From a virus, in IMG/VR virus record IMGVR_UViG_3300047496_000044, positions 1-55,527 of that record: a stretch of 55,527 bases of DNA; one strand, written 5' to 3'. A program made the translations under genes and the position numbers. The notes below the pieces were generated by a model. The model saw only the letters and a list, made by a program, of their open reading frames with translations, was not told the DNA's origin and did no database searches. Shown here one piece after another: positions 3,476 to 36,400 of the stretch. How positions within the stretch are numbered: the stretch's first letter is position 1; every line of letters starts with the position of its first letter.

Positions 3476-4114
3476 ATGAAAAATACGACTAAGTTCGCAG
3501 GGTTAACTATTCATATAGAGAATCCTGTGGGTAGTACTAGAAGTGGCGTAGATAATAATGGAAAGCCTTGGTCTGTAGTTATGACTCATGCTTATGGCGA
3601 GATACTTGGAAGTATGGGTGTAGATGGAGATCCAGTAGATTGTTTTCTTGGATCAGATAAAGCTGCAAAATTTGCTTACGTAGTTCATACAACAAGAAAA
3701 GACGGGACTGGTTTTGATGAAGATAAAGTTATGCTTGGATTTCCGGATGTGGTAAGTGCAAAACAGGCATGGGCAAAAAACTTCGATGAACCAGAACATT
3801 TCTTTGGTAGTATAAGTACAATACCGATTGAGATATTTAAGCAAAAAGTAATGCAGACCAAGAGTAATCCAGCAATGCTTCATGCGTCAAAGATGAATAG
3901 TGTCATAGAGTTGTATGAAGCTGCATCAGCAGGGCCAGGTATAGGAACACCAGTGAGTGTTGATGGGTTTCATGGTAGAGGTGTCATTGTAAGAATAGAT
4001 GGAAGAAAGATGACAGTGAAATTTAGAAATGGTATGTATATTACAAGAGATGTTGGATCAGTACATGCTTTAAGTGATAATTACTATCAATCTAGATATA
4101 TGTCAGGGAGATAG
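3476..4114 (+). CDS. inorganic-pyrophosphatase-like polyvalent-domain protein
   Basis: Residues 1-125 match my recollection of the phage InPase domain: FAGLTIHIENPVGSTRSG, then HAYGEILGSMGVDGDPVDCFLG with the acidic DGDPVD block of soluble pyrophosphatases, then FDEDKVMLGF. In phages this domain is usually a module of large polyvalent proteins. Here it stands alone, joined to a second domain after a hinge, IELYEAASAGPGIG, itself like the leader and GGPGSG element of nearby genes. The C-terminal part (TPVSVDGFHGRGVIVRIDGRKMTVKFRNG) looks like a small KOW/SH3-like barrel. Activity is unproven. Confidence 0.65.
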   Translation: MKNTTKFAGLTIHIENPVGSTRSGVDNNGKPWSVVMTHAYGEILGSMGVDGDPVDCFLGSDKAAKFAYVVHTTRKDGTGFDEDKVMLGFPDVVSAKQAWAKNFDEPEHFFGSISTIPIEIFKQKVMQTKSNPAMLHASKMNSVIELYEAASAGPGIGTPVSVDGFHGRGVIVRIDGRKMTVKFRNGMYITRDVGSVHALSDNYYQSRYMSGR

Positions 4115-5151: not shown

Positions 5152-8100
5152 ATGAAGCTTTTAGAATCTATTCAGTTGTTTGAAGTGAAAGCTGGTGGTC
5201 CTGGATCAGGTTGCGATGAATCCGTAGCAGAAAGTCATGGAACATCGTGCGGACCGAAACCACAAAAAGTAAAAGTCAAAGGTGAGTACATAGCTAAAGT
5301 AAAAGAAAAAGAATTAGCTAAGTATGCAAAGTATCAAGCGCAATTAGCGGTAAATCCTAATGCTGTAAAAAAGATATTGGGACTTTGGACGTACGATAGT
5401 AATATAGGTAAACTGTACAAAGCCATTATGGCTGGGGATTGGCATTCGTTATCCCAGTTACAACAAGACCATATTACAGGGAAGTTGACAGTAAAAGATT
5501 ATTTACATAGTATAAGTAACACTGGTAAAAGATTAGATTTATGGGTAATTGAAAAAAATAAAGCTACAGGGCAGATAAGACTAGTAACAAAAGCCTTTGG
5601 TAATGCAGCTAAAGGTCAAGTAGAAATCACAGATAAGCAGCAACATGCCGCATTAACAGCTGTTTCAAAGTTAATGAGTAACACTGGATTAAGTACAAGT
5701 TTTAGTTCAAAAGTAATGAATGAGTTTATGAAAGACGCAGGTCTTTCAACGTTAAAAGATGTATCAGCGATGGTTAAATCTTGGACTAGTTCCCCCACAA
5801 ATGATGGTGGTACTAAGTTAAGAAAAATAGCTTCTAATTATTATGGCAGGCCATGGAGCAGTGAATATAGTGGAGGACAACATTCAAATACTAACCCAAC
5901 TGTAACGCCAAATGAAATAGATCAAGCATTAGCAGTTAAAGCTTTGGCAACTGCGTATGCACAAGCGGATGGTACAAAGTATGTATATCGTGCTATACAT
6001 GTTACTCCGGAATTAAACAAAAAAATAATACAAGCTAAATTGGATGGGACAGATAGTATAAGTATACCGATTAACTCATTAGCTAGTTATTCTACGGTAT
6101 TAAATAAAGCAGCAAACTTTGGGTCTATAGTAATGCGTAGAGAGGTAAACCCAGATGATGTTTGGTTTGCTAATAAGGCTATGGCTCACTTGTTTGACAA
6201 TCATCAGCATGAAGCAGAATGGGTGATGGGTACTAAAGATACATCAGTATCAATAAAGCCATCTGATATATGGTTAAGGGGTAAAGAATCCAAGCCACCG
6301 TGGGAGTCATCAACGTCAACATTAGATCAATATAAACCTAACCTATCTACAGATTCTATACCAGCTACGCCTGCTCATCCATATTTAGATAAACAAACTG
6401 GAATTCAAAAAGGATCTAATCCAGGTGGAACGTATAAAGGAACAGATGGAGTAGAAAGATATATCAAGTTTTATAGTAGTCCAAACCAAGGGTTCGGGGA
6501 GCATTTAGCTAATAGCATATATAGCGACTTAGGTATACCAGCTCCCAAGTCAAGTATAATAGATGTAAATGGTAAAACAGGGTACACGTCTGAGATAATA
6601 CCTGATGGAAAAACAATACAGGAAATAGGTCTAACTAAAGAAGCAGCACAACAAGTTTTACATGGTTTTGCAGCAGATGTATTAACAGCAAATTGGGACG
6701 TAGTTGGAACAGGCATGGATAATTTATTGCTTAAAAAGGGTACTATCTATCGCATAGACAATGGAGCATCGTTTTTATATAGAGCACAAGGTGGACTAAA
6801 ACCAGACAGTGTTTTAAATCAAATAACAGAATGGGATAAGTTCTTAGATCAAAAGTCAAATCCAAACTATGCTAAGATAGCTGAAAAGGCTGGTATAACT
6901 AAAGCCGAAGATATTTCAGATATTAAAGAACAAGTAAATAAGATAGTAGAATTGAGGAGTAAGTATGGAGATTGGTATAATTATGTAAATATGAAAATTC
7001 CAAATATAAATGCACTGGCTAGAGAGAAGATAATAACTATGTTAGACCATAGAACAAATTTGTTACAACAAAAAGTTAAAGATATGAGTGCATCTAGTAT
7101 GAATTTTGGGGGTCCTGGATCAGGGAGAAAGCCCAGTTATACTAAAGGTTTAAATAAGTGGAAGTCTGTGGAACAGGAAACAAAGACAGCACGAAAAGAC
7201 CCTAAGCAAATGAAACTACCGTTTAAAGTTATAAAGTCTAATGAAGATATGACGGAAAGAGAATCAGGTCCTATATCCAGAAAACTTGGTAATAAGATTA
7301 TGAAAGAAGGAACACAGTTTTGTGTATATGGGGAAGAACCATTGGGTTGTTATCCGTCAAAGGAAAAAGCTATGACAGTAAGTAGAGGTGGTAGTTTTAT
7401 AGAAAATGACATTCAAAGTAAAACAGCTCCACCGCCTATTAGGAAGCATATAAAGCCACCATTACCTGTTCCATTAGGCGATCCTGAGGTAACACATATA
7501 GACGCGTTTAGTTTTCATAAAGTAGGAAAGCCTTCTACTCCCAATAAGTTACCAAAGGTTGGTCACGTAAGGCCTGGTGGTAGTATGAAGCATGGTAAAG
7601 GCGTTGGACATAGATTTACTAATCCATCTTTTCAAGCTGGTGGCCCAGGTTCAGGATGTGAGGGGTCTAATTGTGGGAGGAAACGTAGTTTGTTTCGTAA
7701 TGATTCTCGTCCACCAGCTAATCCAGATTTTGTTCCTAAACCGTTCAAGCTTTATATACAACAAGATAGTCCAACTATAAGTAAAGAAAGTAAAGAAAGT
7801 AAAGAAAGTAAAGAACATCAAAGGCTAGTTCAAGAATTACAAAAGATGAATTTATCAGTTCAACGTGGTGTAGATGGTAAGCCTGTATCATTGAAGGAAG
7901 TAGCGCGAGATGAAATGGTAGTTAGTAACATGAAGTTACTTAAAAGTATTCAAGGTCCTACAGTAACAGTATATCATGGTACAGATGCGGATAAAGATGA
8001 TATTTTAAATAAAGGGTTACGCCCAGATAAGGAGGGTAAGTTATATGTAGCCCTCAGTCCAGAAGGAGCAAGAGAATATGGAAATAAAGTATTTAAAGCA

Positions 8101-8832
8101 GAAATTAATACTAAAGATGTGCTTCCATATTTAGGTAGCGAAGATGGAGAGTTTCAAGTTAGAGGTGGTAATATATCGAAAGAAAGACTTTCTTTACATT
8201 CAGAGGATGTTGGGGATATAGATGCAGATGTAAGCTTAGAAGCAGGTGGCCCAGGTTCGGGTAGACACAGTGAGGGTTTAACAAAAAAATTAACTAAAAA
8301 AGGTGATTGGGTTAAGCATAATGGAAATAGCTATCGTGTAAATGGGCATGTTAAGAGTGCTAAAGGTAATTGGATGGTTAAAGTAACAGGTGGAATGGGT
8401 GGAACTAAATTAATACCAGAATCAAATTTAACTATTAAAAAGGATATTGATTCATACGCAGATTATGGAGAACCAATGGCAGGCAGTATGGGTCATGCAC
8501 ATTTAGACACAAATATGTGGTTTACCCCACCTAGTTTAGCTAAACGTGGAAAAGGTAATCATATACCAGTTGACGATCCCAAAGAGACAGACAACAAATT
8601 TATGGATGTGACTAAGCGTAATAGTTTAGATACACAAAAAGAAAGAATGAAGTTATTAAAACGTGGGGCGCCAGGTGGATTACCACCAGCTTTACCGGTA
8701 AGGACAACACTGGTTGCGCCACACACAGCCACGTATCAGCCTGGAATGTTTGCGGCAAGGCAGGGAAGACGTAGACGTTCTACACTTGAACCAGGCAGTA
8801 CGTTTAGAGCTTATGATGCAGCTCATATATAG
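5152..8832 (+). CDS. giant polyvalent protein: ADP-ribosyltransferase-like, kinase-like, second ART-like domain
   Basis: This 1226-residue multidomain protein has four GGPGSG elements (nt 5194, 7108, 7639, 8245) separating its parts. Residues 270-380 look like an ADP-ribosyltransferase of the R-S-E clade: YRAI (R280), SYS (312-314) and HEAEW with an ExE pair (E354, E356). Residues 410-640 look like a PI-kinase/HipA-type kinase fold: YIKFY (K439), ADVLTANWDVVG (N514, D516) and IDNGAS (D536). Residues 935-1025 resemble a second ART of the H-Y type: VYHGT (H942), then KLYVALSPEGAREYG. A small FCVYGEEPLGCY module lies near residue 725. It has a (SKE)4 repeat. It begins with the leader ESIQLFEVKAGGPGSG. 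Probably a virion-associated effector or internal head protein; activities are predicted from motifs only. Confidence 0.7.
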   Translation: MKLLESIQLFEVKAGGPGSGCDESVAESHGTSCGPKPQKVKVKGEYIAKVKEKELAKYAKYQAQLAVNPNAVKKILGLWTYDSNIGKLYKAIMAGDWHSLSQLQQDHITGKLTVKDYLHSISNTGKRLDLWVIEKNKATGQIRLVTKAFGNAAKGQVEITDKQQHAALTAVSKLMSNTGLSTSFSSKVMNEFMKDAGLSTLKDVSAMVKSWTSSPTNDGGTKLRKIASNYYGRPWSSEYSGGQHSNTNPTVTPNEIDQALAVKALATAYAQADGTKYVYRAIHVTPELNKKIIQAKLDGTDSISIPINSLASYSTVLNKAANFGSIVMRREVNPDDVWFANKAMAHLFDNHQHEAEWVMGTKDTSVSIKPSDIWLRGKESKPPWESSTSTLDQYKPNLSTDSIPATPAHPYLDKQTGIQKGSNPGGTYKGTDGVERYIKFYSSPNQGFGEHLANSIYSDLGIPAPKSSIIDVNGKTGYTSEIIPDGKTIQEIGLTKEAAQQVLHGFAADVLTANWDVVGTGMDNLLLKKGTIYRIDNGASFLYRAQGGLKPDSVLNQITEWDKFLDQKSNPNYAKIAEKAGITKAEDISDIKEQVNKIVELRSKYGDWYNYVNMKIPNINALAREKIITMLDHRTNLLQQKVKDMSASSMNFGGPGSGRKPSYTKGLNKWKSVEQETKTARKDPKQMKLPFKVIKSNEDMTERESGPISRKLGNKIMKEGTQFCVYGEEPLGCYPSKEKAMTVSRGGSFIENDIQSKTAPPPIRKHIKPPLPVPLGDPEVTHIDAFSFHKVGKPSTPNKLPKVGHVRPGGSMKHGKGVGHRFTNPSFQAGGPGSGCEGSNCGRKRSLFRNDSRPPANPDFVPKPFKLYIQQDSPTISKESKESKESKEHQRLVQELQKMNLSVQRGVDGKPVSLKEVARDEMVVSNMKLLKSIQGPTVTVYHGTDADKDDILNKGLRPDKEGKLYVALSPEGAREYGNKVFKAEINTKDVLPYLGSEDGEFQVRGGNISKERLSLHSEDVGDIDADVSLEAGGPGSGRHSEGLTKKLTKKGDWVKHNGNSYRVNGHVKSAKGNWMVKVTGGMGGTKLIPESNLTIKKDIDSYADYGEPMAGSMGHAHLDTNMWFTPPSLAKRGKGNHIPVDDPKETDNKFMDVTKRNSLDTQKERMKLLKRGAPGGLPPALPVRTTLVAPHTATYQPGMFAARQGRRRRSTLEPGSTFRAYDAAHI
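7780..7815 (+). repeat. 9-bp tandem repeat, four units (SKE)4
   Basis: AGTAAAGAA is repeated four times without change, giving (SKE)4 in the giant protein between its GGPGSGC element and second ART-like domain. It is probably a flexible charged linker and, being identical at the DNA level, a likely length-variable site. Confidence 0.9.
7846..7871 (+). repeat. 26-bp word shared with the island at 23888
   Basis: This 26-bp stretch, beginning ATGAATTTATCAG, is identical to 23888-23913. Here it is read as MNLSVQRGV inside the giant gene; the other copy is read in a different frame. It is far longer than expected by chance in a sequence this size. Confidence 0.85.
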
Positions 8833-9103: not shown

Positions 9104-12100
9104 ATGAACAAAAAATTAGACACAGTATTCGATCAGAAAGACTTGATAGCGGCTGTTGTTGAGGCAGCCGCTGATTTTGTTCATTCTGCGTGGGACGGTA
9201 TGGTTAAGCCAACATATCCATCAGATCATAAAGCAGCTATGCGAGTACCAAAAGGTGGTAGTTCATGTGCATCGTGTGAGTACCTTGTAGGTAAAGATGA
9301 ATGTAGTAACAAACATTTCCAGAAGTGGAATGGGTCAAACAAATTACCAGCACCAGCAGATGAGTATTGTAGTGACTGGTATGAACCAAAGAAAAAGATA
9401 GAAGCAGGTGGGCCTGGTTCAGGACGTCACCAGATGTTTTATCATGGTATAAATAAACCTAGGTTGAATAGTAAGTCGATTGACGATATAGTTAAAAGTA
9501 TATTAACTAATGGCTTAAAAACTCAGTCTTCATCTATAGGAAATAGAGTATACTTGTATAGGGCGGAAGCTAAAAATATGGCCCATGAATATACACAGAA
9601 AGGAAAAAATGGAAATACATATGTTGCTAAATTTAAAATACCCGTAGAGTGGGCAAAAAGAAATTTAAAGTCTGATAACGATTCAGCAATGGGGTCTGTA
9701 GAAGGTAAAAAAGATATTCCACGGGAATTTTTACATTCCATTCAAGTGTATAAGGGAAAGTTAGATAGAATAGATGGAGAAGATGCATTACCAATAAAAG
9801 AAATAAAAGCAGGTGGACCTGGTTCGGGTAGACATGCAGATCCAAGCAAGTTTGGATTTCATGGTACTGAGATGAAACGTGTAAGTTCTATTATTAAACA
9901 GGGCATACTACCCCAAGTAGGAAAAAATTCACTTGGTGATCTAGCACCAGCTGCGTATGTCGGTACAAGAAATCGAGCATTAGCGTATGCAGTAGGTAAT
10001 GTTACTAACTATGATTTTAAAGTATTCCCCCCACGTAAAATCGAGCCATCACCAGATACAAAAATACCAATAGTTGTTATTAAGCCTAGTTTATACGATG
10101 AACCAATGTCAAAATCAGATAAAAAATTAGCAGACACAACAGGAGATCGAGAGGCATTTAGTAGTGGTGTCGCTAAGAAACATATAGATAGAATTGAAAT
10201 ATATAATTACAAAGATGTTAAAGATTTAGATTATGAAAATAAAGCCGATCCAGTACAGGTAATTCATCTTAATAGTATAAAAGCTTATGGTACTAGTGAA
10301 GGTGTAACAAAGTCATGGGATACCAGAGGTAGATCAAATAAAGAACACGTTTACCAACTTAAGCCTGGTCAAACTACAGAAGATGTATATAGAAAACCAA
10401 ATGGGGAGTGGGACGAAGATAGAGCTGCTTTTCATAAGAGAGTAATTGATAGTTACATACAAGGAAAAACAAAAGTTAACGAACCACCAGAATTTACGTT
10501 GTTGGGTGGCGGAACAGCTTCTGGAAAGACTACCCTTAGTAATCAGATATTAGGTAATAGGCCTAATACAGTTAGAATCGATCCAGACGAAATAAAAAAA
10601 TTGATACCAGAGTATGCAGGTCTTAAAAAATCAGACCCAGAAAAAGCTTCGTTTAGAGTTCATGAAGAATCATCGTACTTATCAAAAGCAATTTTAGCCG
10701 CAGCCGCAGCAAAAGGTTTAAACATTACTTTAGATAGTACATCTTCTGGGGGTAGTACAGCCAAGTTGATTCCGAAGTTAGCATCAGCAGGATATCATAT
10801 TCATGCTTTATTTGCTGATATACCCGTATCGGTGGCTAAACAAAGATCATTTGATAGAGCTAATAATCCATCAAGTCCGTCATTTGGGCGATATGTTCCA
10901 GATGACGTTCTTGAAGATTCACATAAAGGTGCAGCTGCAAATTTTATGCGATTGAAGGATATGCCTGAAGTAAGTTCAGCTCAACTGTTTGATAATACAG
11001 ATAAACCATTACTTGTATATGGCAGGGCTGGTAAGAGTAATCCAATTGTATTTGATGATGATAGATGGAGTAACTATCAAAGAAAAGCTAGAGGAACAAG
11101 TATGGAAGGGGCAAGTCAACATAAAAATAATAAAGATAATAAAGATAAAAAGCCTGGGCATTATACAGACTATAATAAAGATATATTTGATGACAGTGAT
11201 GATATAGATGATTTTAGTAAATTATTGGAACAAGAACAAAATAAGGTACCAGCAGATGAGTACTGTAGTGATTGGTATGAACCAAAAAAGAAAATAGAAG
11301 CAGGTGGCCCAGGTTCTGGCCGCAGACCAACAAAGAATTTTGATCCAAGTGGTAATATTTTAGGTAAACAATTACTCGGAGGTATATCTCAGATACCGGA
11401 TTATAGTTTCAAGGAACAACAATCACAACCAGTAACAAATGTGAATGTAGCAGATTTAAGGCCAGTTCAATCTGGAGTTATTGCTAGTGTAATAACAAAG
11501 TTAATGGATGATATGGAAGTTAATGGTTATAAGAAAAACATGCCTGTTGATGTAATTAAGTTTAACGGTAAATACGTTTTGTTAGAAGGGCACCATAGAG
11601 CTACAGCATGGGGGTTGTTGGGTAATGACACAGTTCCAGCTAAAGTTTTAGATTTAGGTAACGATGTAAAAGCAGGTTCAGAAGATTCTCTTGATGGAGA
11701 TAAAGAAGGAACATTATGGAAAGGAATCTGGATAAAAGGTTTTACTGGTCCTCAAGAAGAAGGACTAAGAGCTATGCTCTCCAGAATTCCACCAGAATTG
11801 TTATATAACGTAAAGGTTATAAAATCGGCAATAGAACTAAATGCAAAGCATGGTAGGTACGATCCTGAAACAAAAGAAATTTTATTTAATCCAACTAATT
11901 TTAGTTTAAGAGAAAGATTAGGTAAGGGTGATGGATGGCTATATCATGCTGAGTTGACAGTTGTGCATGAAGTAGGGCATAGTATATACGAGTCACTAGC
12001 ACCAGAACAAAAAACAGAATGGAATAGATTAGGAGGTTGGCAAAAAGGTTGGAAGCAAGGGCAAGCTCCAGCATATGAAGAAAAACGACCCGGGTGGGGA

Positions 12101-12304
12101 AATTCAGTTAGTGAGTACACACATATAGCAGGTTTAAAGTTACCAAGGTATTATTCGGAACGGAATCCGAATGAGTGTTTTTCAGATTGCTTTGCATATT
12201 ATATTTTAGGTAAACAACATCAAATGGAACCTAGTATGAAAAACTTTATTGCTAGTATAGTTAATGAGAAGGTTAAGGCATATCCACAAGTTAACATACA
12301 TTGA
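9104..12304 (+). CDS. giant polyvalent protein: two ART-like domains, zeta-toxin-like kinase, ParB-like domain, HExxH metalloprotease
   Basis: This 1066-residue protein is punctuated by three GGPGSG elements (nt 9407, 9812, 11303). Residues 50-95 hold a four-Cys motif (C55, C58, C67, C89) ending CSDWYEP. Two ART-like modules follow: FYHGI (H114) with RVYLYRAEAKNMAHEY, and FHGT (H253) with AAYVGTRNRALAYA. Near residue 468 the P-loop GGGTASGKTT (K475) with DSTSSGG downstream matches zeta-toxin kinases. A second CSDWYEP segment precedes a ParB/sulfiredoxin-like motif LLEGHHRATAW (E828, H830). The C-terminus has HEVGH (H955, E956, H959) with a candidate third ligand in NECFSD (E1024), a gluzincin-type metalloprotease. 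The likely role is a packaged effector or self-processing polyprotein; no activity is shown. Confidence 0.75.
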   Translation: MNKKLDTVFDQKDLIAAVVEAAADFVHSAWDGMVKPTYPSDHKAAMRVPKGGSSCASCEYLVGKDECSNKHFQKWNGSNKLPAPADEYCSDWYEPKKKIEAGGPGSGRHQMFYHGINKPRLNSKSIDDIVKSILTNGLKTQSSSIGNRVYLYRAEAKNMAHEYTQKGKNGNTYVAKFKIPVEWAKRNLKSDNDSAMGSVEGKKDIPREFLHSIQVYKGKLDRIDGEDALPIKEIKAGGPGSGRHADPSKFGFHGTEMKRVSSIIKQGILPQVGKNSLGDLAPAAYVGTRNRALAYAVGNVTNYDFKVFPPRKIEPSPDTKIPIVVIKPSLYDEPMSKSDKKLADTTGDREAFSSGVAKKHIDRIEIYNYKDVKDLDYENKADPVQVIHLNSIKAYGTSEGVTKSWDTRGRSNKEHVYQLKPGQTTEDVYRKPNGEWDEDRAAFHKRVIDSYIQGKTKVNEPPEFTLLGGGTASGKTTLSNQILGNRPNTVRIDPDEIKKLIPEYAGLKKSDPEKASFRVHEESSYLSKAILAAAAAKGLNITLDSTSSGGSTAKLIPKLASAGYHIHALFADIPVSVAKQRSFDRANNPSSPSFGRYVPDDVLEDSHKGAAANFMRLKDMPEVSSAQLFDNTDKPLLVYGRAGKSNPIVFDDDRWSNYQRKARGTSMEGASQHKNNKDNKDKKPGHYTDYNKDIFDDSDDIDDFSKLLEQEQNKVPADEYCSDWYEPKKKIEAGGPGSGRRPTKNFDPSGNILGKQLLGGISQIPDYSFKEQQSQPVTNVNVADLRPVQSGVIASVITKLMDDMEVNGYKKNMPVDVIKFNGKYVLLEGHHRATAWGLLGNDTVPAKVLDLGNDVKAGSEDSLDGDKEGTLWKGIWIKGFTGPQEEGLRAMLSRIPPELLYNVKVIKSAIELNAKHGRYDPETKEILFNPTNFSLRERLGKGDGWLYHAELTVVHEVGHSIYESLAPEQKTEWNRLGGWQKGWKQGQAPAYEEKRPGWGNSVSEYTHIAGLKLPRYYSERNPNECFSDCFAYYILGKQHQMEPSMKNFIASIVNEKVKAYPQVNIH
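9353..9427 (+). repeat. 75-bp coding duplication, copy 1
   Basis: This segment encodes 25 residues running from PADEYCSDWYEP to GGPGSGR. It is repeated at 11249-11323 in the same gene. By eye the two copies differ at ten positions, all third-codon and synonymous, so the peptide is identical. Confidence 0.9.
11249..11323 (+). repeat. 75-bp coding duplication, copy 2
   Basis: Second copy of the segment at 9353-9427, placed between the zeta-like and ParB-like domains. The upstream Cys pair of the N-terminal four-Cys motif is not duplicated, so this copy carries only the last Cys, the WYEP block and the GGPGSG element. Confidence 0.9.
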
Positions 12305-21230: not shown

Positions 21231-23048
21231 GTGTCAGTAATACATACAGCAAGTCCATATGGTTTTACAAGAACTAAATCTGCGTATCACGGGCCAGATT
21301 CGACAAGGGTAAAAGAACAGCTGCTCCTACTTCAGACCGCATGGAAAGAAATGGGAGCAGCTAAATTTATTCAAAACTATTGTTGGATTCAACCTAAGCC
21401 ACCTGAAAAAGGTGAGCGTCGTAATCTCCCGCCACTAAAGATCTGGAATAGGAACTTAATTCCATTCAAATTAAATCGTATACAGTTAGATATTGAAAGT
21501 AAACTAGGAAAGAGAAACATTTTCCTTAAGCCTCGTCAAGGTGGGTACACCACGTACACAATGATTCGCAGGCTATTTGTTCCATGTATTCTTAATCCAG
21601 GTGAAAATGGATTATTGATTGCACAAAAAGGTCAATCTGTAACAGACTACTTTAGAATTTTAAGACGTGCATACAATACATTCGGAGTAAAGGATCCATT
21701 CAATAAGGACAAAAATACTTTCGCAAGAGAATTACATCAGCATTTATTACATACGGTATATTCAAATAGACGGGAACTTGTATTCGATCAGATCGACGTA
21801 TCGATACATTGTGAGTCAGCAGAAGTGGAGGAAGCAGGGCAAGGATATACGCCAACGCATGTTGTAGCGTCAGAAGTTGCAAGATGGGAAGGCAATCCTG
21901 AAGCAACGTTAGCAAATTTAAAAGAAGCTATTCCAGCAGCAGGTACGTTGGATTTAGAATCTACAGCAAATGGTTGGGGTGGTTATTTCTTTGAAGAGGC
22001 AATGAGGGCGAGGGATACGTCTAAACCATACAGAGAATTTACGTATCATTTTCATCCGTGGTGGTTTCACGAAGAATACTATGATGACATTCCTGTAGAT
22101 GAGGATTCATTACAAAAAGATGAACTTCGTTTAATAATGACGTTTGATTTAAATTTACAACAGATAGCATGGAGAAGACGAAAAAAAGAAGAACTTCGAG
22201 GAGACTTCGATGAGAAATATCCTGAGGACGACGTTAGTTGTTTTTTAATGTCTGGTCAACAATACTTTGATAAAGAGATAATTCGTGAGCGTAGGACTGA
22301 ACTAGTAACGTATAAACCAAAAGAGGAATATCAGAAATTAACTATTTATAGAAAAGAACGCCCACACCATGAGTACATAATCGGAGCAGACGTTGCTTCA
22401 GGTTTAGACACGACAGAAGGAAAAGGGGACTTGGATTATTCCGCGGCGGTTGTTATTGATAAGGCTACTGGGGAGCAGGTTGCATCGTACCACGCTCATA
22501 TTATTCCAGAGGAGTATGGATGGGAACTAGTTGATCTTGCCAAGCGTTACAATAATGCACTGATAGCAGTAGAGCGAAACATGGATGGAGGAGCAGTTAT
22601 TTTAACAATGGAAGTTGCTTGTATGTATGGGAACATTTATAAGCATCGGGATTGGTGGAAAAAAGATTGGCGAAAAGGCAATAAAGGGCAAGGTGGTGGA
22701 AGTCAGATGCGAGAAATCGTCGGCTTTCCAACAAACCAAAAAACAAGACCATTGGCATTGAATCGTCTTCGTCACTTCATTACAGAATCTCCGGACTTGA
22801 TTTACGACATTAAATTGATTGAGGAATGTGCAACATTCGTCAGAGATTACAAGAAAAAAGGAATACCATCTGCGTCTCCCGGGTGCCATGACGATAGGGT
22901 TATGGCAGCTTCCATTGCACATTATGTTCGGAACGTTGTGCTGGGCTACCTGAATCCAGAACAGTTGCCCAGGCGTGAATCATATGGAGAGACGCCCCAG
23001 GAATTCGCCGCAGATGAAATTGAAACAGATACCACTGGGGATGAATAA
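21231..23048 (+). CDS. terL: terminase large subunit
   Basis: The 605-residue packaging motor-nuclease has an N-terminal ATPase: RNIFLKPRQGGYTTYTMIRR, a Walker A of the RQxGxST type with Tyr where Lys is usual; VVASEVARW as Walker B region; and LESTANGWG as the coupling segment. The C-terminal RNase-H-like nuclease has IIGADVASGLD...DYSAAVV, ALIAVERNMDG and DDRVMAAS, supplying acidic metal ligands. The start is a GTG at 21231 with only CAAG before it; GGAG is further upstream. Base composition rises toward its 3' end. No small terminase subunit is recognisable. Confidence 0.92.
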   Translation: MSVIHTASPYGFTRTKSAYHGPDSTRVKEQLLLLQTAWKEMGAAKFIQNYCWIQPKPPEKGERRNLPPLKIWNRNLIPFKLNRIQLDIESKLGKRNIFLKPRQGGYTTYTMIRRLFVPCILNPGENGLLIAQKGQSVTDYFRILRRAYNTFGVKDPFNKDKNTFARELHQHLLHTVYSNRRELVFDQIDVSIHCESAEVEEAGQGYTPTHVVASEVARWEGNPEATLANLKEAIPAAGTLDLESTANGWGGYFFEEAMRARDTSKPYREFTYHFHPWWFHEEYYDDIPVDEDSLQKDELRLIMTFDLNLQQIAWRRRKKEELRGDFDEKYPEDDVSCFLMSGQQYFDKEIIRERRTELVTYKPKEEYQKLTIYRKERPHHEYIIGADVASGLDTTEGKGDLDYSAAVVIDKATGEQVASYHAHIIPEEYGWELVDLAKRYNNALIAVERNMDGGAVILTMEVACMYGNIYKHRDWWKKDWRKGNKGQGGGSQMREIVGFPTNQKTRPLALNRLRHFITESPDLIYDIKLIEECATFVRDYKKKGIPSASPGCHDDRVMAASIAHYVRNVVLGYLNPEQLPRRESYGETPQEFAADEIETDTTGDE

Positions 23049-23061
23049 TTTTGTAGAACGG

Positions 23062-23154
23062 CTGTATCCCAAAAAGTCAAAGGGATAGGTCAGTTGGCAG
23101 CAGGAACAGTGATAGATTAGCCTTTTGTTTTTTTTTTTTTTCAAAACAAAATTG
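23062..23154 (+). repeat. direct repeat copy 1 (after terminase)
   Basis: This matches 24665-24759 with substitutions and indels, including an exact 26-bp core at 23086-23111. It looks like a decayed 3' gene end plus terminator: the stem is degenerate and the T-tract has grown to 14 T (23128-23141). Confidence 0.85.
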
Positions 23155-23163
23155 TGTAAAACG

Positions 23164-23240
23164 GCCCTGAAAATAAGGGCTAGCCTACCAAGGGGTCGTC
23201 CAGACCCCATTATCGATTGGGAAAAATAATGCTTTTTCCC
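23164..23240 (+). terminator. three stacked hairpins between terminase and the island promoter
   Basis: GCCCT/AGGGC (23164-23180), GGGGTC/GACCCC (23192-23208) and GGGAAAAA/TTTTTCCC (23219-23240) follow one another in a 228-bp gene-free stretch (23049-23276). They could insulate the terminase transcript from the next unit. Only the third has a U-rich arm, so individual terminator activity is uncertain. Confidence 0.55.
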
Positions 23241-23242
23241 CA

Positions 23243-23270
23243 TTGACATTCATCTTTAAGATGCTACAAT
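23243..23270 (+). promoter_or_regulatory. sigma70-type promoter of the island
   Basis: TTGACA (23243-23248), 16-bp spacer, TACAAT (23265-23270). This is the best classical -35/-10 pair in the window and unlike the extended -10 boxes elsewhere. The first ATG, 23277, is six bases after the -10. Confidence 0.8.
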
Positions 23271-23276
23271 TAACTC

Positions 23277-23582
23277 ATGGAAGTGAAGCGGGTGGCAGAA
23301 GTTAAAAACAGGTCATTTGGCGGGCGGCATTATCAATTTCAATCTAAAGGAGAATGTATGAATCGGGTTCCTGATTTGAGAAACATTACTATGAATGGGG
23401 TACCACTTCAGGTTGTGGTTGACGAAGAAGTTCGTGGGGAGATTAAAACGCACCACGCCGCCGAGGTTCGGGAAATGAACTTTGTGAAACGCGTACACAT
23501 TCCAACATCTTCATTCCGGAACCATTCAGGTTCCAGAAGTGGTAAAGGTCGCGTGATATTCCACAGAGGAGGTGCCCAGTGA
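23277..23582 (+). CDS. small basic hypothetical protein (island gene 1)
   Basis: Two in-frame starts are possible: 23277, at the predicted transcription start (leaderless, 101 residues), or 23358, after a strong AAAGGAGAA (74 residues). The sequence is basic and Arg/His-rich (RNITMNGVPLQVVVDEEVRGEIKTHH, then SSFRNHSGSRSGKGRVIFHRGG). No family is recognised. Base composition is richer in GC than the tail and replication genes. It is first in a four-gene run ending in a strong terminator. Confidence 0.5.
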   Translation: MEVKRVAEVKNRSFGGRHYQFQSKGECMNRVPDLRNITMNGVPLQVVVDEEVRGEIKTHHAAEVREMNFVKRVHIPTSSFRNHSGSRSGKGRVIFHRGGAQ

Positions 23583-23839
23583 GTCGAGTAAAATTATCTC
23601 CGGAAGAAGAAAAACAAATTAAGAATGTAATGGGAATCTGTTGGGCGGCAGTAGAGTATGATTGTGCCTCTCAATATAAAAACCAAAACATTCCCATTTC
23701 ACATGCAGTTGGTATTGTACTAGATTTCTTCCATCCCAGTAGATTTGAAGGCTGGGCCAAACTTGATCCAGCTGTGTACTCAAAGTTTGAGCAACTATCC
23801 AACACAGCAAAGTCCAAGTTAGCAAGGAGCGTGTTATGA
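23579..23839 (+). CDS. small hypothetical protein (island gene 2)
   Basis: An 86-residue, mostly helical protein with a GTG start at 23579 after GAGGAGGT and overlapping the previous stop. The motif LSPEEEKQIKNVMGICWAAVEYDC...SHAVGIVLDFFHPSRFEGW is not one I recognise. Its stop overlaps the next ATG (ATGA), indicating translational coupling. Confidence 0.55.
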   Translation: MSRVKLSPEEEKQIKNVMGICWAAVEYDCASQYKNQNIPISHAVGIVLDFFHPSRFEGWAKLDPAVYSKFEQLSNTAKSKLARSVL

Positions 23840-24129
23840 ATTGCAGACATTGTGGTAAACCATTAGTAGAAGAAAGAAATACCATTAATGAATTTATCAG
23901 TTCAACGTGGTGTTTCAATTGTGACGGCAGATTCGCAGAGCCTCTACCAACAAAAAAGTGGGCAGTGTGGTATGAGCTACCCGGACGACCTGTTACATAT
24001 ATTCACATTTTCCATACATCAGGACAAGCCGCTGTTGATTACTGTTGCTTGGAAGGTGTTGGATTTGACGGCAGACAAAAAGTAACAGTAACAAAAGATC
24101 AGATCATTCGGGTGGAAGAAGTAAAATGA
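23836..24129 (+). CDS. zinc-ribbon protein (island gene 3)
   Basis: A 97-residue protein beginning MNCRHCGKPLVEE with a second pair, TWCFNCDGRF, forming a zinc ribbon, followed by a beta-rich domain (WAVWYELPGRPVTYIHIFHTSG). It contains the 26-bp segment identical to part of the giant gene at 7846-7871, read here in a different frame. ATGA overlap with the previous gene. Confidence 0.55.
   Translation: MNCRHCGKPLVEERNTINEFISSTWCFNCDGRFAEPLPTKKWAVWYELPGRPVTYIHIFHTSGQAAVDYCCLEGVGFDGRQKVTVTKDQIIRVEEVK
23888..23913 (+). repeat. 26-bp word shared with the giant gene at 7846
   Basis: Second exact copy of the 7846-7871 sequence, within island gene 3, encoding a different peptide (NEFISSTWC) because the frame differs. 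Confidence 0.85.
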
Positions 24130-24169
24130 GCAGCAAAAAGTTTGAACATCAAAATTGAAAAGGAGAATT

Positions 24170-24691
24170 ATGAATAACGGAGAAAAGAAAATTGTGATCG
24201 GTTCCACTGGCAACAAGTATGTGGTTAGCAAAAAGGAAAACAAGATGACGTGTTCATGTCCTCGGTGGACTAAGACCAGTCCCAGGGAAAATTGCAAGCA
24301 CATCAAATCGGTTTTGACTGGGTTGACTCTGAAACAGTTGGCAGCATTGAAGTCGAAGGCTGGTAAATCTGAATCCAAAAAGGAGAACAATATGAAGATG
24401 AATGTGAAGTCTGAGAAGTCCGCGAAGGTTGTTGTGAAGGCATCGTTGGCTCCAAAGGGAAAGTCGGAATCGATGAATGTGAAGAAGGCCAGCGAGGTCA
24501 TCTACAAATTGATTGCCAAGGCGCCCGGGAAGTTTGTGCGCGAAGGCTTGCGCGAAAAGTCTGGACTGGATCGGTCGTCGGTGGCCGCGGCCTGCAAGGC
24601 GTTGTGGAAGGAAAAGAAAATCCGCCGGGTGATCTTGAAGTCTGGGTCTGCTGGTCCTTACATCCTGTATCCCAAAAAGGCACAAGGGTAG
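24170..24691 (+). CDS. SWIM-type zinc-finger plus winged-helix-like protein (island gene 4)
   Basis: The ATG at 24170 follows AAGGAGAA. The N-terminus has MTCSCPRWTK...ENCKHI, the CxCx(n)CxH pattern of SWIM zinc fingers. A Lys/Ser-rich linker follows, then about 60 residues (SEVIYKLIAKAPGKFVREGLREKSGLDRSSVAAACKALWKEKKIRRV) that read like a winged-helix DNA-binding domain. It ends in YPKKAQG, inside repeat copy 2, followed by a strong terminator. A DNA-binding regulator is the likely role. Confidence 0.6.
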   Translation: MNNGEKKIVIGSTGNKYVVSKKENKMTCSCPRWTKTSPRENCKHIKSVLTGLTLKQLAALKSKAGKSESKKENNMKMNVKSEKSAKVVVKASLAPKGKSESMNVKKASEVIYKLIAKAPGKFVREGLREKSGLDRSSVAAACKALWKEKKIRRVILKSGSAGPYILYPKKAQG

Positions 24692-24759
24692 GTCAGTTGG
24701 CAGCAGGAACAGTGCAGGGCTAGAGTAATCTAGCCCTTTTGTTTTTCAAAACAAAATTG
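24665..24759 (+). repeat. direct repeat copy 2 (end of island gene 4)
   Basis: The intact form of the repeat at 23062-23154: it holds the last codons of the SWIM gene, the 26-bp core (24689-24714) and the terminator. Copy 1 probably arose from the same 3' end by duplication or recombination. Confidence 0.85.
24717..24746 (+). terminator. rho-independent terminator
   Basis: GGGCTAGA (24717-24724), loop GTAA, TCTAGCCC (24729-24736), then TTTTGTTTTT. A perfect 8-bp stem closing the island transcription unit. Confidence 0.92.
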
Positions 24760-24792
24760 AGGATGGCCGCAAGCTGGAAGAAGGGAATCGCG

Positions 24793-25353
24793 ATGATTAC
24801 CACCACACTGCAAAAACTGAAAGATGCGGATGCCTGCGTACCACGCTACAAGCATCTACGTGAGGCTCTGGGCACTAGCTTTGGAATGGATACCGAGTTA
24901 CCGCTGACGCGGATTCTCGAAACCAATGGCAGCGAGGATGTTCTCTGGGCACTCAATAATGCGGTTGACGGAGGCGACAAGATTCTCCGTCTTTGGGCTG
25001 CGGACTGTGCCGAACATGTTCAACATATTTGGCTTGCGAAGTACCCAAACGATCAACGACCGGCAGAAGCTATTAAAGCAGCTCGGCAGTTTGCACGCGG
25101 AGAGATAACCGCTGCGGCAATGGATGCGGCGAGGGATGCGGCGAGGGATGCGGCGAGGGCTGCGGCGGGGGATGCGGCGAGGGATGCGGCGAGGGCTGCG
25201 GCGAGGGATGCGGCGGATGCGGCGTGGGCGGCGTGGGCGGCGTGGGATGCGGCGGGGGGTGCGGAAGAAAAGTGGCAGACGGATCGCCTCATTGCCTATC
25301 TGAATGAAGCAGTAACCGGGGACTGGCACGCGAGTGCTCAGATTGCCGGATGA
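24793..25353 (+). CDS. GC-rich Ala/Arg/Asp repeat protein, Imm5-like
   Basis: The 186-residue protein has a helical N-terminal part (VLWALNNAVDGGDKILRLWAADCAEHVQHIW, then NDQRPAEAIKAARQFARGE) that recalls the Imm5-type immunity/unknown family (CAE...RP..AI.A.R....G). A run of AARDAARDAARAAAGD repeats follows, then AAWAAWAAWDAA and a short tail. The ATG at 24793 has AGAAGGGA seven bases upstream. It is much richer in GC than all neighbours and lies beyond the island terminator, so it looks recently acquired. No partner toxin is visible. Confidence 0.55.
   Translation: MITTTLQKLKDADACVPRYKHLREALGTSFGMDTELPLTRILETNGSEDVLWALNNAVDGGDKILRLWAADCAEHVQHIWLAKYPNDQRPAEAIKAARQFARGEITAAAMDAARDAARDAARAAAGDAARDAARAAARDAADAAWAAWAAWDAAGGAEEKWQTDRLIAYLNEAVTGDWHASAQIAG
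25118..25262 (+). repeat. 12-bp GC-rich tandem repeat
   Basis: Variants of GCGGCGAGGGAT and GCGGCGTGGG repeat about a dozen times within the Ala/Arg/Asp gene. The DNA repeat is cleaner than needed for the peptide, suggesting slippage-driven growth. Confidence 0.85.
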
Positions 25354-25401
25354 ACCGCAACCGCTCGTGATGGGTTGAGCAGAAATTGAAAAGGAGATAA
25401 C

Positions 25402-25671
25402 ATGAAAAAGGCAATAAAGGGAATACAAGCTGGAGGACCAGGATCAGGTCGTAGGCCAGGATATGGAAATTCAGCTCACAGTGAATTGAAAAGTTGGGGA
25501 TTTAAGCATCATTTTGGTAATGATGGATCATCTAACTACACCCATAAGGACTCTGGTTATACAGCAAAGATAAGTCCAAGTGGCAAATTGAAAATGACGG
25601 ACGATAGTGGAAAGTCATATAAAGGTAGAGTAGACCAATTTGTTTCTGACGCTTTATACCAAAGGCGATAA
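25402..25671 (+). CDS. small GGPGSG-element protein
   Basis: An 89-residue protein after AAAAGGAGA. It begins MKKAIKGIQAGGPGSGRRPG, the same leader-plus-element as in the giant genes, then a beta-rich domain (LKSWGFKHHFGNDGSSNYTHKDSGYTAKISPSGKLKMTDDSGKSYKG). The AT-rich codon style returns here, matching the phage backbone rather than the island just upstream. It may be a single-module relative of the polyvalent proteins. Confidence 0.6.
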   Translation: MKKAIKGIQAGGPGSGRRPGYGNSAHSELKSWGFKHHFGNDGSSNYTHKDSGYTAKISPSGKLKMTDDSGKSYKGRVDQFVSDALYQRR

Positions 25672-30468: not shown

Positions 30469-33400
30469 ATGGATGAACCAGTAAAAAAGCTATTAGTTAA
30501 GCTGGGAATTAGTACATCTGACTGGAAAGTAGCAGTCAATGAGATTAAATCCCAGCTTAATGCTATCAATGCACAAGCTAAAGCTGATGCTGCGTCAATG
30601 AAAGCAGTACAAAAAGAACAGATTGATTTAACTAAACAACAGATAGCCGAACAACAAAGATTAGCTGCCGAAGCTAAAGCTATGGCAGAGTTTGATAAAG
30701 CGAAAGCTGCATGGGAAAAGAAGAATCAGGAAGCTTTAAAGACTAAGTTACAGTTAAAGATATTAGAAACAGCTGAATTAAAGAAACAAGAAGTAATAAC
30801 AAGGGCGGCTACAAAAGCAGAACAAGCTAATTTAAGGTTAAAACAGCAGCAGCTTTCGTTTGAAAAACAGTCTGCATATATAGCTGAAAAGAAGTTAGCC
30901 GATGAGTTAAAAGCATCTGAGAGACTAAAGCAAGAAAAACTAATTGAAGAAGAACGTGTACGAAGAATAGCTGCACAACAAAAAGTATTAGGTGCAGTTA
31001 ATCAGACTGGGCAACTATCTGTTACACCTTATACGAACAATGAGATTATTCAGTCTCGTGCAGCTTTAAGTGAAGAAAAACAACGTTTAGCTTTAATGGA
31101 AGCTGAACTAAGGGTACAAGGAACGCAAGCTGGAGTTAAAAGAGTAGATTTAGAATTAGCAGAGAAACAGATAGCGGAAGAAAGGGCGAAATTAGGTTTA
31201 CAGGAAGTACAGATAACAAGATCAGAACAGCTTCTCAGGCTGCAAAAAGAACAGGAAAGAATTCAAGCTTCTACTGTAGATGCAGCCGCAGTAGCAAAGA
31301 TAAAACAAAGGGTAGGTTATTCTCCATATACAGCTCCTAAGATTGGTGGACTATTAGGTGTTGGAGGTTTGTTGGGTGAATCTACATCTTCAGCTGTAGA
31401 AGAAGTGTATAAAGAGAAAGAAAAATTGAGTATTATGCAAGCTGAGCTACGGGTAATGGCTCAGGAAGAAGAATATCGTAAAGTAGACATTGCTTCAGTA
31501 TCCACAGCAATAAGTAAAGAAAGAGAAAGACTAGAATTATTAAGTATGCAGTTGCGTGAACAAAAGGAACAATCTATAGCTGGAAAATTAACTGGTTTTG
31601 CCAAAGAAACAGCTAGTGGGATTGGAAATACATTACAAAGGTTAACTGGTGGTGGTGTATTGGGTAGTATAATAGTTGGTGGTATAAGTATAGAACTTAT
31701 CAATAAGTTAGTTGAAAAAGTTGGTGAACTAAAAGCTGATTTAGTAGGCGCTGTAGGACCAGCACAACAGTTGAGAGTTGAATTTGAAAGGTTAGCAGAA
31801 CGTAAGGGAATATCAGGGGAAGATATGTTGAAAGACCTTCGTGCTAATACGCGGGGGTTAGTAGCAGACTTGGATTTATATAAAACAGCCAATACGTTTC
31901 TTCGTTCAGGAATGAAATTAACTGAAGAACAGATGTCTAAGTTAGTAGGTACGACAGTAGAACTTGCAAGGGCAACAGGGCATACAGCTCCAGAAGCTAT
32001 GAGGGCGTTGGAACAGTATTTTATAACTGGTTATGCCAGGTCTATTGGTAGAGTCACAGGTATAAATAGACAAGAATTGGCTGTAAGAGGGTTATCAAAT
32101 ACGTTATCACCATTAGATAAAAAAACAGTAGAATTTGTTAATTTACAGTTTCAAGAAGAACAGATGTTTCTTAGAGTTGGTAAGGCGGCTACAACAGTAC
32201 CAGAAATATTACAACAAGTTACAGTAGCACAACAGAACTTTATAGAAGGTATAGCTAAAGGAATCACAAATAGTAATAGCTTTAATGAAGCTATACAAAG
32301 AATGTCTCAGTTGTTAATTAGTTTAGGACCAAAATTAGAAGATATAGCAGTAAAGGTAGGAACACATTTAGGTAATGCTGTTAAATGGGTAGCCGATAAT
32401 TTTAATACTTTAAAGCATGTAGTAGAAGGATTGATTGCAGTTAAAGTTGGAATATGGGCTATTAAGCAAGGAATTGAATTAGAAAAGCTTGGATCAAAAG
32501 TTGTACAATTAGCTTATAAGTACGGTATATTAAAATTAGCTAAAGAATCATTAGACACGCCAACAAAAGGTATAAGGGCTGGGGAAGGAATAGCTGAAGG
32601 TGTGGGGGTAGGTGTAGCCGAAGGTGTCGGCGAAGGGGCGGGAGTAGGTGTAGGGGTAGGTGTAGCCGAAGGTGTGGGCGGAGGGGTAGCCGCAGCTGGA
32701 TTATTAGCTTCGTTACCGGTTGTGATTGCTATTGGGGCAGCTTTAGGTTATATCGCTTTAGTAGCTAAAACAGTGGGTTTAACATTTTCAGATATAGTTC
32801 CAGCAGCTCGAGAATTAGAGACAGAGATTAAAGAAAAGTTAACAGCGGCATGGGACATAGTTAGTAAAAAATCTATATCGTATTGGTCAGATCTTAAAAA
32901 CGCTGCTAAACCTGTTATAGATTATTTATCTGACTCTATTGGGTTGAATATAGTTTCAGCGTGGGAGAAGGTAGAACAGGCCGGAGGTAAGGCCTGGGAT
33001 TATATTAAAGAACATGCAGTAGATGCCTTAAAGAATACACCAGAAGGGTTTATTGCACGTCAAATAAAAGCTTTATCAGAAAAAGATAAACTAAGACCAC
33101 CTGATGTTTCATCTTTACCGTCCTTATCGGATAACCGTCGTACCCCTTGGAACGCATTATTAGTTAAACCTAAGTCAAAAGAAGAAGAGGAAAAACAAGA
33201 CGCATGGTTTGCAGCACAAAAGAAAATAGCAGAGCAAACATCACAGTTACATCAGTTGATGAATAAGAGCATTTTAGATGCGTTAAAACAACGTATATCA
33301 GCAGAAGATCAAGCTTTAAAAGATCAATATGATGAAGGTATAATATCGTTAAGGGAATATGCAGCTAAAGAAAAAGCCATAAAGACAGAAGAATCAGATG

Positions 33401-36400
33401 CGGAGATAAAGAAACTTAGAAGTGATTTAGAGGAAAAGTTAAAAGCAGTAAAAGTTGGGGAATCAATTGAAATTGATGGTAAGCCTTATCAAACAGGGAA
33501 TGCAGAATCAGCTGAACTAGCTAAAAAGATTTTGAGAGAAAGGGAAGCAGACGCAGAAATTGCTATTGAGACTAGAAAAAATACACAGTTGCATAGTATT
33601 AACAGACAGTTGATTAGTGATGAGGAAGCAGCCTATCGTGTTTATATAGAAACTATCAATAAGATTGAGTTGGATGGAGTTAAAGAACGAACGACCATTC
33701 TAGAAACAGAATTTAAGCAAGGTAATGTAGGTGCACAGACATATATAGAAGATCGTAAGTCATTGATTAAAGAAGAGCTTGATTTAACGTTAAGTGGATT
33801 AAGTGCTAAAAAAGACGCCAATAAAAATAATGCTATTGAACTAGCTAACATTGCTAAGGAAGAAGGATTAGCAAGATTAGCTGCTATAAAACAAACAAAT
33901 CAGTTGGAGTTACAAGAAGCAGACATACAGGTACAAGCTTTACAAAATCATTACGACAAAGCTAAAAGATTTCTTGAAACACAGTATACAATAGCTAAAG
34001 GATCAGTTGATATTGATTCTTCACAGAAAGCATATGCTATTGATACACAGCTTTTGAGTTTAACAGATCAGTTTATAGAAAAACAGATACAACAATTAAA
34101 TGTTGTAGGACAGACGCAGGCATACTATACAAAAATATATGAGTCTATTTCTCAAGCAACATTAGAGCAGCAAAAATTAAATCAGCAATTAGCTCAAGCT
34201 AAGGATTTGTCTGGTCCTTTATCGAATGTATTTGGACAGATAGCAGGGTTGGTTGGAGAATTTAGAAATACATCAGGGGCAGTGTCAGTTCTTAATAACC
34301 TGTCGAAGTCATTAGAGAATATCTCTAAGTTTACAGTTTACAATAATTTAAGAAAAGCACAGTCTAATAAGGTACCCGGATTAAACGTAGCTAAGTCAGC
34401 ACAACAGATATTTGATGAGGCTCTTGGAAAATCTGCTAGTACAGTAGATATGTTAGATTCTGTATATAGAGATACAGCAAAAGAAGTTAAATATTTTGGG
34501 GATGCGTTAGAGACTGTAAGAAAACAATTGTTGCAAGATCAAGCTTCGCAGGCAGTACCGTTAACAAATATTCCGTTACAGTCGGCACAGGATAATACAG
34601 ATTTTCCGACTTACGATTCATCACAAGGTTTCGATAATGCGTTTCCTTGGAAAAATTTTCAAGTAGGAGGAATAGTTACAGAAACAGGTCCAGCTTGGTT
34701 GCATAAAAATGAGGAGGTAATAAATGCACCACAAGTTGGAATGTTGTCAAAGATGGTAGAAAAACTGACACAGGAAATATCCAAACTAACAGGTAGTTTA
34801 GTAAAAGTATTGAATAAGATTGATAACAGCAATAAGCCTACGTCAACATTAAATGATTCAGTCGGTGGATTAAAAGGTTTTGAAGTACAAGGTACCGAAG
34901 TGAATTACAAAAATAAGTCTAGTAATGATAATGATAATAGTGCGTTATCACAGTTGAAAGCTCCAGTTAAGGCTCTTGCTACGTCTTTTATGAATTTGTT
35001 TCATAGTACAGATAAGTTAACAGGTGCACAGGTTCCATTTGCAGCACGTTTGCAAGACTTTACTAAAAACTTAAGTGGGTGGATTGCAGGAATACAAGGA
35101 GTTATACAAGGCGTCACTGGTGGTAAAAATGCAGCTGGTGGGGCTTTAAGTGGTGGCATGGCAGGAATGCAGTTAGGTTCTAATTTTGGACCAATAGGAG
35201 CAGCCGCAGGGGCAGTTGGAGGGGCAGCTCTCGGGGCTATTTTTGGAAATAAACAGGCAAGACTTACTTCAGATTTGAAGAAGGTCCAAGATCAGATGCA
35301 ATCAATAATAGACTCTATGAATGCTGGTACTATTTCATTAGCACAGACAATTGCAGATTTACGCAGGGAAAGACAACAAGCATTAACAATGTTGTCAGGT
35401 GATAAAAAAGGAAGCAAGAGTAAGAAAGGTCAGCCAAGTCAAGTACAACAAGCTATACAGGCTATTGATTCTGAAATTGCTAAGTTGGTAGAACAGCAGA
35501 CACAGATATTACAAAATTTAACATCGTCACTAATAACTTTATCTCAGCCTTTACAGTTTCAAGATTATTTAAATTCACTGGATCAGATTATACAAAAGTA
35601 TCAAGAATTCGCTTCAGCAGCACAAGGTAATGCACAAGAGATGGGTCAAGCAAATCAGTTTCTTACACTTAGTCTGCAAAACTATGTAACAACGTTAAGT
35701 CAACAATTGAATCAGGCACAACAAACAGCTATACAAGATGCATTAACGTTAATAAATCTTGAGTATCAAAGACAACAGTTGATAAATCAAACAGCTCAAC
35801 AAGAATATGATATATTAACTCAGGGAGTCTTAGCTCGTCAGCGTACAACGGCTATGACTAAAGGTCAAGAAATAGGACAGCTTAGATATCAGAGAGACAT
35901 GCAGTTGCAACAAATGGATGAAGAAATAGCTATCAATCAAGCTAAGGTAGATGCAGAAAGTAAAATCTTTGGATTAGCGACAACAAGAATTGGACTAGAA
36001 CAACAATTACTGCAAGCACAAAAAGAACAAGCAGATTATCAAATAGCACAAGTGTTGGCTTTATCGCAAGTTGTATCGGCATTAACATCGGGATTATCTT
36101 CAGGGCAGATAATGAGCCAGCTACAGGCAATGTATGCTGGTGGTTCCATGCCTACTGGTTCTGGTTTACTATTGTTATTAGCTCAGTTGTTAGGTTTGGA
36201 TGTACCGGCTGGGGATACAGGTGGACAGTATGGTACTCAAAACTGGTTGACACAAGTTCCACAACAATGGCAAGACGCAGCACAATATGTATCACAACAA
36301 AATCCAAACTTTTATAAAGATTTTGAGGCAGCAGCAGGTTCGTCACCAGGTTCACCAAGTCGTACAGCTGCCGTTGATGATGTACAGCCTTTAGTTGCAC

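Follow-up and report, generated by a model that had tools for sequence, protein, structure and literature searches.

Beyond a few model phages, the proteins that phages package in the capsid and inject into the host are mostly unknown. Herpesvirus protease sites end in Ala and have a hydrophobic residue at P3 (third before the cut), and HK97 cuts after Lys. In T4, a 10-residue leader suffices for capsid targeting, and gp21 cuts after L/I-x-E (PMC9026906); in the giant phage SPN3US, the cut falls after A-x-E (PMC10052503). The locus described here lies in a 55,527-nucleotide viral record of IMG/VR (IMGVR_UViG_3300047496_000044), which was analyzed over its whole length and is called the window below. 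It encodes repeated copies of a short peptide, GGPGSGR, and our analysis indicates that the form φ-x-P1/GGPGSGR (φ, hydrophobic; slash, the proposed cut) is probably a capsid-protease cut site that frees injected effector domains.

Two 75-bp segments that lie in frame in ORF 9104-12304 (copies 1 and 2, Table 1) encode the same 25 residues, PADEYCSDWYEPKKKIEAGGPGSGR. The preliminary description had reported identical residues and ten synonymous differences, and translation bore this out, with exactly 10 differing sites, all in third positions. The pair was also recovered mechanically, with 88% identity between the two copies. When copy 1 was compared with copy 2 by NG86, this gave S = 17.2, N = 57.8, dS ∼1.1, and dN = 0, and the probability that all ten changes would be synonymous under neutrality is ∼4e-7. 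This comparison of dN and dS, proposed in the preliminary description, shows that selection at the protein level is real. Recent gene conversion between the copies is ruled out by the 10 synonymous differences. The homology of the copies extends a few residues upstream (NKLPAPADEY versus NKVPADEY), and this part differs by a two-residue indel and one replacement (L/V), which shows that the copies are not under absolute constraint.

The 25-mer is a composite in which 18 residues from the C-terminal tail of a HiPIP-like domain are followed by the 7 residues GGPGSGR. A sequence-specific function, rather than that of a passive linker, had been attributed to the entire 25-mer; this holds for GGPGSGR, which recurs up to tens of times per phage genome under strict sequence rules, and is not supported for the first 18 residues, which are the tail of the HiPIP-like domain. 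The idea of one fixed 25-residue peptide also finds no support in the other motif copies, whose upstream sequences are unrelated save for hydrophobicity at −3 and a constant residue at −1. Nor is it supported by G018 (IMGVR_UViG_3300021479_000008, 119 kb), a distant relative of the window with a 58% identical terminase and many collinear genes: in the orthologous protein of G018 the tail, PADEFCSDWWEPKKELEA, is single, differs at 4/18 positions, and is not followed by GGPGSGR. The window contains 8 copies of GGPGSG, so the "duplication" is a pair within a larger family of motif copies.

The HiPIP-like domain is whole at copy 1, and its tail alone is present at copy 2. HiPIPs are characterized by the arrangement CxxC...C...C, an aromatic residue close to the final cysteine, and a bound 4Fe-4S cluster. 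The pattern of the domain (PxDH...VPKGGSxCxxCxYL...C...W.G...YCSDWYEP) is shared by many IMG/VR contigs, in which the domain is often a small protein by itself (for YCSDWYEP-domain small proteins, loci L140-L153), and its four cysteines are conserved across 13 aligned sequences. A PDB profile search with the four-cysteine domain matched HiPIPs only, weakly (E=0.25), and the structure model of the domain was of poor quality. In the cultured phage DSL-LC01, the neighbor of a giant protein is annotated as a high-potential iron-sulfur protein.

All 8 GGPGSG copies of the window are on the + strand (reversed-pattern control, 0), with 4 in ORF 5152-8832, 3 in ORF 9104-12304, and 1 in ORF 25402-25671, and they sit between domains or behind short N-terminal leaders. 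Those in ORF 9104-12304 stand between recognizable modules (zeta kinase, ParB-like, and metallopeptidase), and with these three the protein contains at least two effector-type domains in one phage protein, as polyvalent proteins do. Its metallopeptidase domain matches PF07737 at E=0.006, below the family cut-off. ORF 5152-8832 begins with MKLLESIQLFEVKA/GGPGSG and has partial homology to proteins of G018 and of another contig, G003. At 5194 and 7639 in the window, the R after GGPGSG is swapped for a two-cysteine loop, CxGxNCGRP, in the forms CEGSNCGRK and CDESVAESHGTSCGPK; this swap is also found at loci L294, L292, and L298.

Table 1. Features of the window (slash, proposed cut site)
Feature	Position	Strand	Basis
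Second polyvalent protein, 1226 aa; motif at 5194, 7108, 7639, 8245	5152..8832	+	
Polyvalent (multi-effector) protein, 1066 aa, holds both copies	9104..12304	+	
HiPIP-like four-cysteine domain (CxxC...C...YCSDWYEP), with copy 1 as its tail	9209..9397	+	13-sequence alignment
Copy 1: HiPIP tail and KKKIEA/GGPGSGR	9353..9427	+	translation
Module 1, ADP-ribosyltransferase-like	9428..9811	+	by eye only; no Pfam match
GGPGSGR motif at module 1/module 2 boundary (KEIKA/GGPGSGR)	9812..9832	+	
Zeta-toxin/P-loop kinase domain, aa 452-634	10457..11005	+	PF06414 E=2.4e-30
Copy 2: orphan HiPIP tail without CxxC half, and KKKIEA/GGPGSGR	11249..11323	+	
ParB-like domain, aa 769-856	11408..11671	+	phrog_4715 E=2.7e-7
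Zincin-like metallopeptidase domain (HEVGH), aa 854-1066	11663..12301	+	60% identity to G018 orthologue
Terminase	21231-23048		
Small protein, 89 aa, leader MKKAIKGIQA/GGPGSGRRPG, motif at 25432	25402..25671	+	

Pattern scans of IMG/VR yielded ∼38 contigs with the motif. The number of GGPGSG copies per contig reached 27 (G009, 113 kb) and 19 (G010, 25 kb), the copies of a contig almost always sharing a strand, and reversed-pattern controls gave 0 except in two of 30 contigs, which rules out a chance origin of the motif. The residue before GGPGSG (P1) is constant per genome, being K at 27/27 sites in G009 and 19/19 in G010, F at 6/6 and 7/7, E at 5/5, and N at 3/3; in the clade of the window it is A, at 7/8 sites in the window itself. 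After sites with similar flanks had been removed and related contigs merged, pairs of sites within genomes agreed at P1 in 96% of cases versus 34% after shuffling (maximum 47%), and concordance at P2 and P4 was inside the shuffled range. P3 is hydrophobic in 72/72 K-type sites and in 96% of the 51 A-type sites, and most upstream positions other than P3 and P1 are unconstrained. The form of a prohead site (P3 and P1 constrained, P2 free) is seen in K-, A-, and N-type sites and not in F- and E-type sites, which lack the hydrophobic P3 rule. The residue that follows GGPGSG is R, or C in the CxGxNCGRP variant, and the R-[HKR] found downstream is basic. When Glu was required ahead of the motif, a scan returned only chance reads in other frames, and a scan of bacterial genomes with the strict motif pattern returned none. 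Queries with the short motif found nothing in cultured phages; low-complexity masking, which hides peptides rich in glycine, may be the reason.

In the proposed mechanism, GGPGSG[R] would mark where each mature unit of a capsid-loaded protein begins, within a site φ-x-P1/GGPGSG-R whose P3 is hydrophobic, P2 free, and P1 set per phage (Ala in the clade of the window; elsewhere Lys, Phe, Glu, or Asn). The capsid maturation (prohead) protease of the phage would cut before GG. This cut would take off a short N-terminal targeting leader and would split polyproteins into HiPIP-like, ART-like, zeta kinase, ParB-like, and metallopeptidase domains, and the freed effector domains would be ejected into the host together with the DNA. 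A P1 residue that is fixed per phage would follow if the cargo proteins of every phage were cut by the capsid protease of that phage. With such a unit-boundary motif, whose P1 letter would reveal the specificity of the cognate protease, metagenomic sequence would suffice to list injected effectors and to divide them into their mature products.

The first motif lies at most 45 aa from the first Met in 59/95 motif ORFs, behind leaders such as MSKFEFTK, MKKAIKGIQA, and MNLGQRIVLQA. Pairs of leaders are alike in 33% of cases within genomes versus 3% between genomes, and the sequence after the motif is similar in only 3/24 alike-leader pairs. By analogy with the capsid targeting sequences of T4, the motif leader appears to be a common tag on unrelated proteins.

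Other motifs stand at the start codon itself. When ATG-GGPGSG behind a ribosome site was searched for, 55 stretches were found, a number that is not a frequency, as the scan selects for the start-codon form; they encode many MGGPGSGR proteins that are small and lysine-rich, several per contig. In contig G021, which was found through another pattern, 4/4 motifs are at a gene start (M-GGPGSGR). Small lysine-rich phage proteins that open with MGGPGSGR[KR]KG right behind a ribosome site are present at loci L345-L398 and L194. The M-GGPGSGR gene starts place the start of the unit at GG and suggest that GGPGSGR has an N-terminal role of its own. Because known prohead sites do not require GGPGSG downstream and the M-GGPGSGR proteins are independent of a protease, the peptide must have a further role. 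We tentatively suggest, as a possible rather than a probable extension, that the capsid cargo of phages has GGPGSGR as a common "mature N-terminus" tag, reached either via a protease with a genome-specific P1 or via an M-GGPGSGR start. If so, it would mark proteins for capsid loading or ejection, and the cargo repertoire of uncultured phages would be readable from sequence.

The M-GGPGSGR proteins, mostly small and lysine-rich, require no cleavage, and together with the basic R-[HKR] downstream and the recurrence of the CxGxNCGRP variant they are compatible with a motif that is never cut and heads each domain as a structural or binding tag for the capsid or the packaged DNA, with P1 locked for another reason. 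We regard this as unlikely, as an uncut tag leaves unexplained the constraint on P3 and P1 only, the genome-specific P1, and the leaders.

Cleavage by a capsid protease, the reading that we favor, is consistent with the protease genes of the motif contigs. Six K-type contigs have S78 or phrog_3017 proteases. S78 proteases are found in G019 and G027; G009, G010, G030, and G037 match a head-maturation-protease family; and in G037 the motif and an XkdF-type protease are in one ORF. The A-type clade gave no match to S78 or to the head-maturation-protease family. In five of its contigs (G018, G006, G025, G003, and G033), a candidate protease-scaffold protein is encoded between the portal (identified in G018) and a putative capsid gene that is conserved; in G018 this candidate lies at 95869-97524. 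This candidate has a conserved N-terminal half (invariant H and GMSME), and the rest of the protein is acidic or coiled, which resembles protease-scaffold fusions. The best match of its structure model (pLDDT 66, modest confidence) was T4 gp21 (E 6e-4, prob 1.0), followed by herpesvirus proteases and, in BFVD, by phage prohead proteases. As hhalign found no link between the A-type and K-type proteases, the protease link rests on the predicted fold.

From its position and conservation, we infer that the gene after the candidate A-type protease encodes the capsid protein; PHROGs gave no clear name for it. In all five contigs (5/5), the putative capsid protein has φ-x-A before a conserved AAD boundary, with variable leaders that end in LQA, IGA, VSA, FTA, and ISA, the same rule as at GGPGSGR. 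The capsid proteins of G009 and G011 apparently have no leader. No recognized portal, protease, or capsid gene is present in the window record. The gap between the terminase and the small motif protein (23049-25402) is ∼2 kb in the window versus ∼20 kb in G018, where it includes the portal, protease-scaffold, and putative capsid genes; this shortfall may reflect a genuine rearrangement, divergence, or an incomplete or chimeric record.

Another protease that might act at the motif is the polyvalent protein's own zincin-like metallopeptidase, as the window and G018 proteins have an HExxH metallopeptidase at their end and polyvalent proteins in general are proposed by Iyer et al. to be processed by zincins (PMC5512222). 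Such autoprocessing is quite unlikely, as most motif-rich contigs (G010 with its 19 sites, for example) lack HExxH in all of their motif ORFs, sites located in other, small proteins would have to be cut in trans, and φ-x-P1 is the form of a prohead-protease site.

Relatives of the window were located through DNA patterns; a related-locus search with the whole ORF 9104-12304 found nothing. A tblastn search of window proteins against cultured phages returned single-domain matches only, and the stretches read of five cultured-phage records with such matches contained no motif. In the G018 orthologue, a leader is followed by GGPGSGRH, a zinc-ribbon-like region, the HiPIP-like domain, and directly thereafter the metallopeptidase. 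Homology between the window and G018 ends exactly at the start of GGPGSGR in copy 1 and picks up again at the metallopeptidase. The single G018 tail without GGPGSGR and this break at the motif indicate that a ∼750-codon cassette was inserted at the boundary, and this insertion accounts for the 25-residue "duplication". Copy 2 is the amputated tail of a second HiPIP-like domain plus its motif. Part of the protein-level selection may have acted in intact HiPIP domains before the cassettes joined, and some of the synonymous divergence between the copies may be older than the joining.

Module order varies among the window, G018, and G003 with breaks at the motif, and in a G003 protein a unit with the motif at its end has recently been duplicated in tandem (48 upstream residues identical, dS 0.14). 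It is nevertheless very improbable that the segment has been preserved for its use as a recombination hot spot, where domain cassettes are shuffled, and not for its peptide, because copies that differ at 10/75 DNA sites and have an identical peptide point to selection on the protein. The domain shuffling is real and probably a by-product. At 3476-4114 in the window there is a stand-alone homologue of an InPase-like domain that G018 and G003 carry fused into their motif polyproteins, which suggests domain fission or fusion between relatives. Two adjoining giant ORFs (30469-43155; 2174 and 2053 aa), the second with a tail-fibre-like region at its end (phrog_7049), are kept in G018, G025, and G003.

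Among the papers searched, none contained GGPGSGR, and matches to GGPGSG were unrelated; a text search of Iyer et al. 2017 (PMC5512222) found no boundary motif. Capsid-protease cleavage at GGPGSGR would resemble the processing of the internal proteins and Alt of T4, with a short N-terminal leader and hydrophobic-x-P1 cleavage (by gp21 in T4, proposed here) and with capsid cargo ejected into the host that includes an ADP-ribosyltransferase in T4 and an ART-like module, recognized by eye, here. In T4, however, P1 is Glu, GGPGSG is absent after the cut, and there are no chains of effector domains with repeated sites. Phages phiKZ and SPN3US likewise process many ejection proteins with a single prohead protease at a short motif, but with another P3 and P1 (A-x-E) and no invariant P' side. 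Herpesvirus assemblin and the HK97 (S78) protease have a related fold, whereas their sites are few per genome and lack GGPGSG. The polyvalent proteins described in 2017 by Iyer et al. share the fusion of ParB, ART, zincin, InPase, and kinase domains in single phage proteins and differ in that their processing was ascribed to zincins; for these proteins, the motif would provide the missing processing site.
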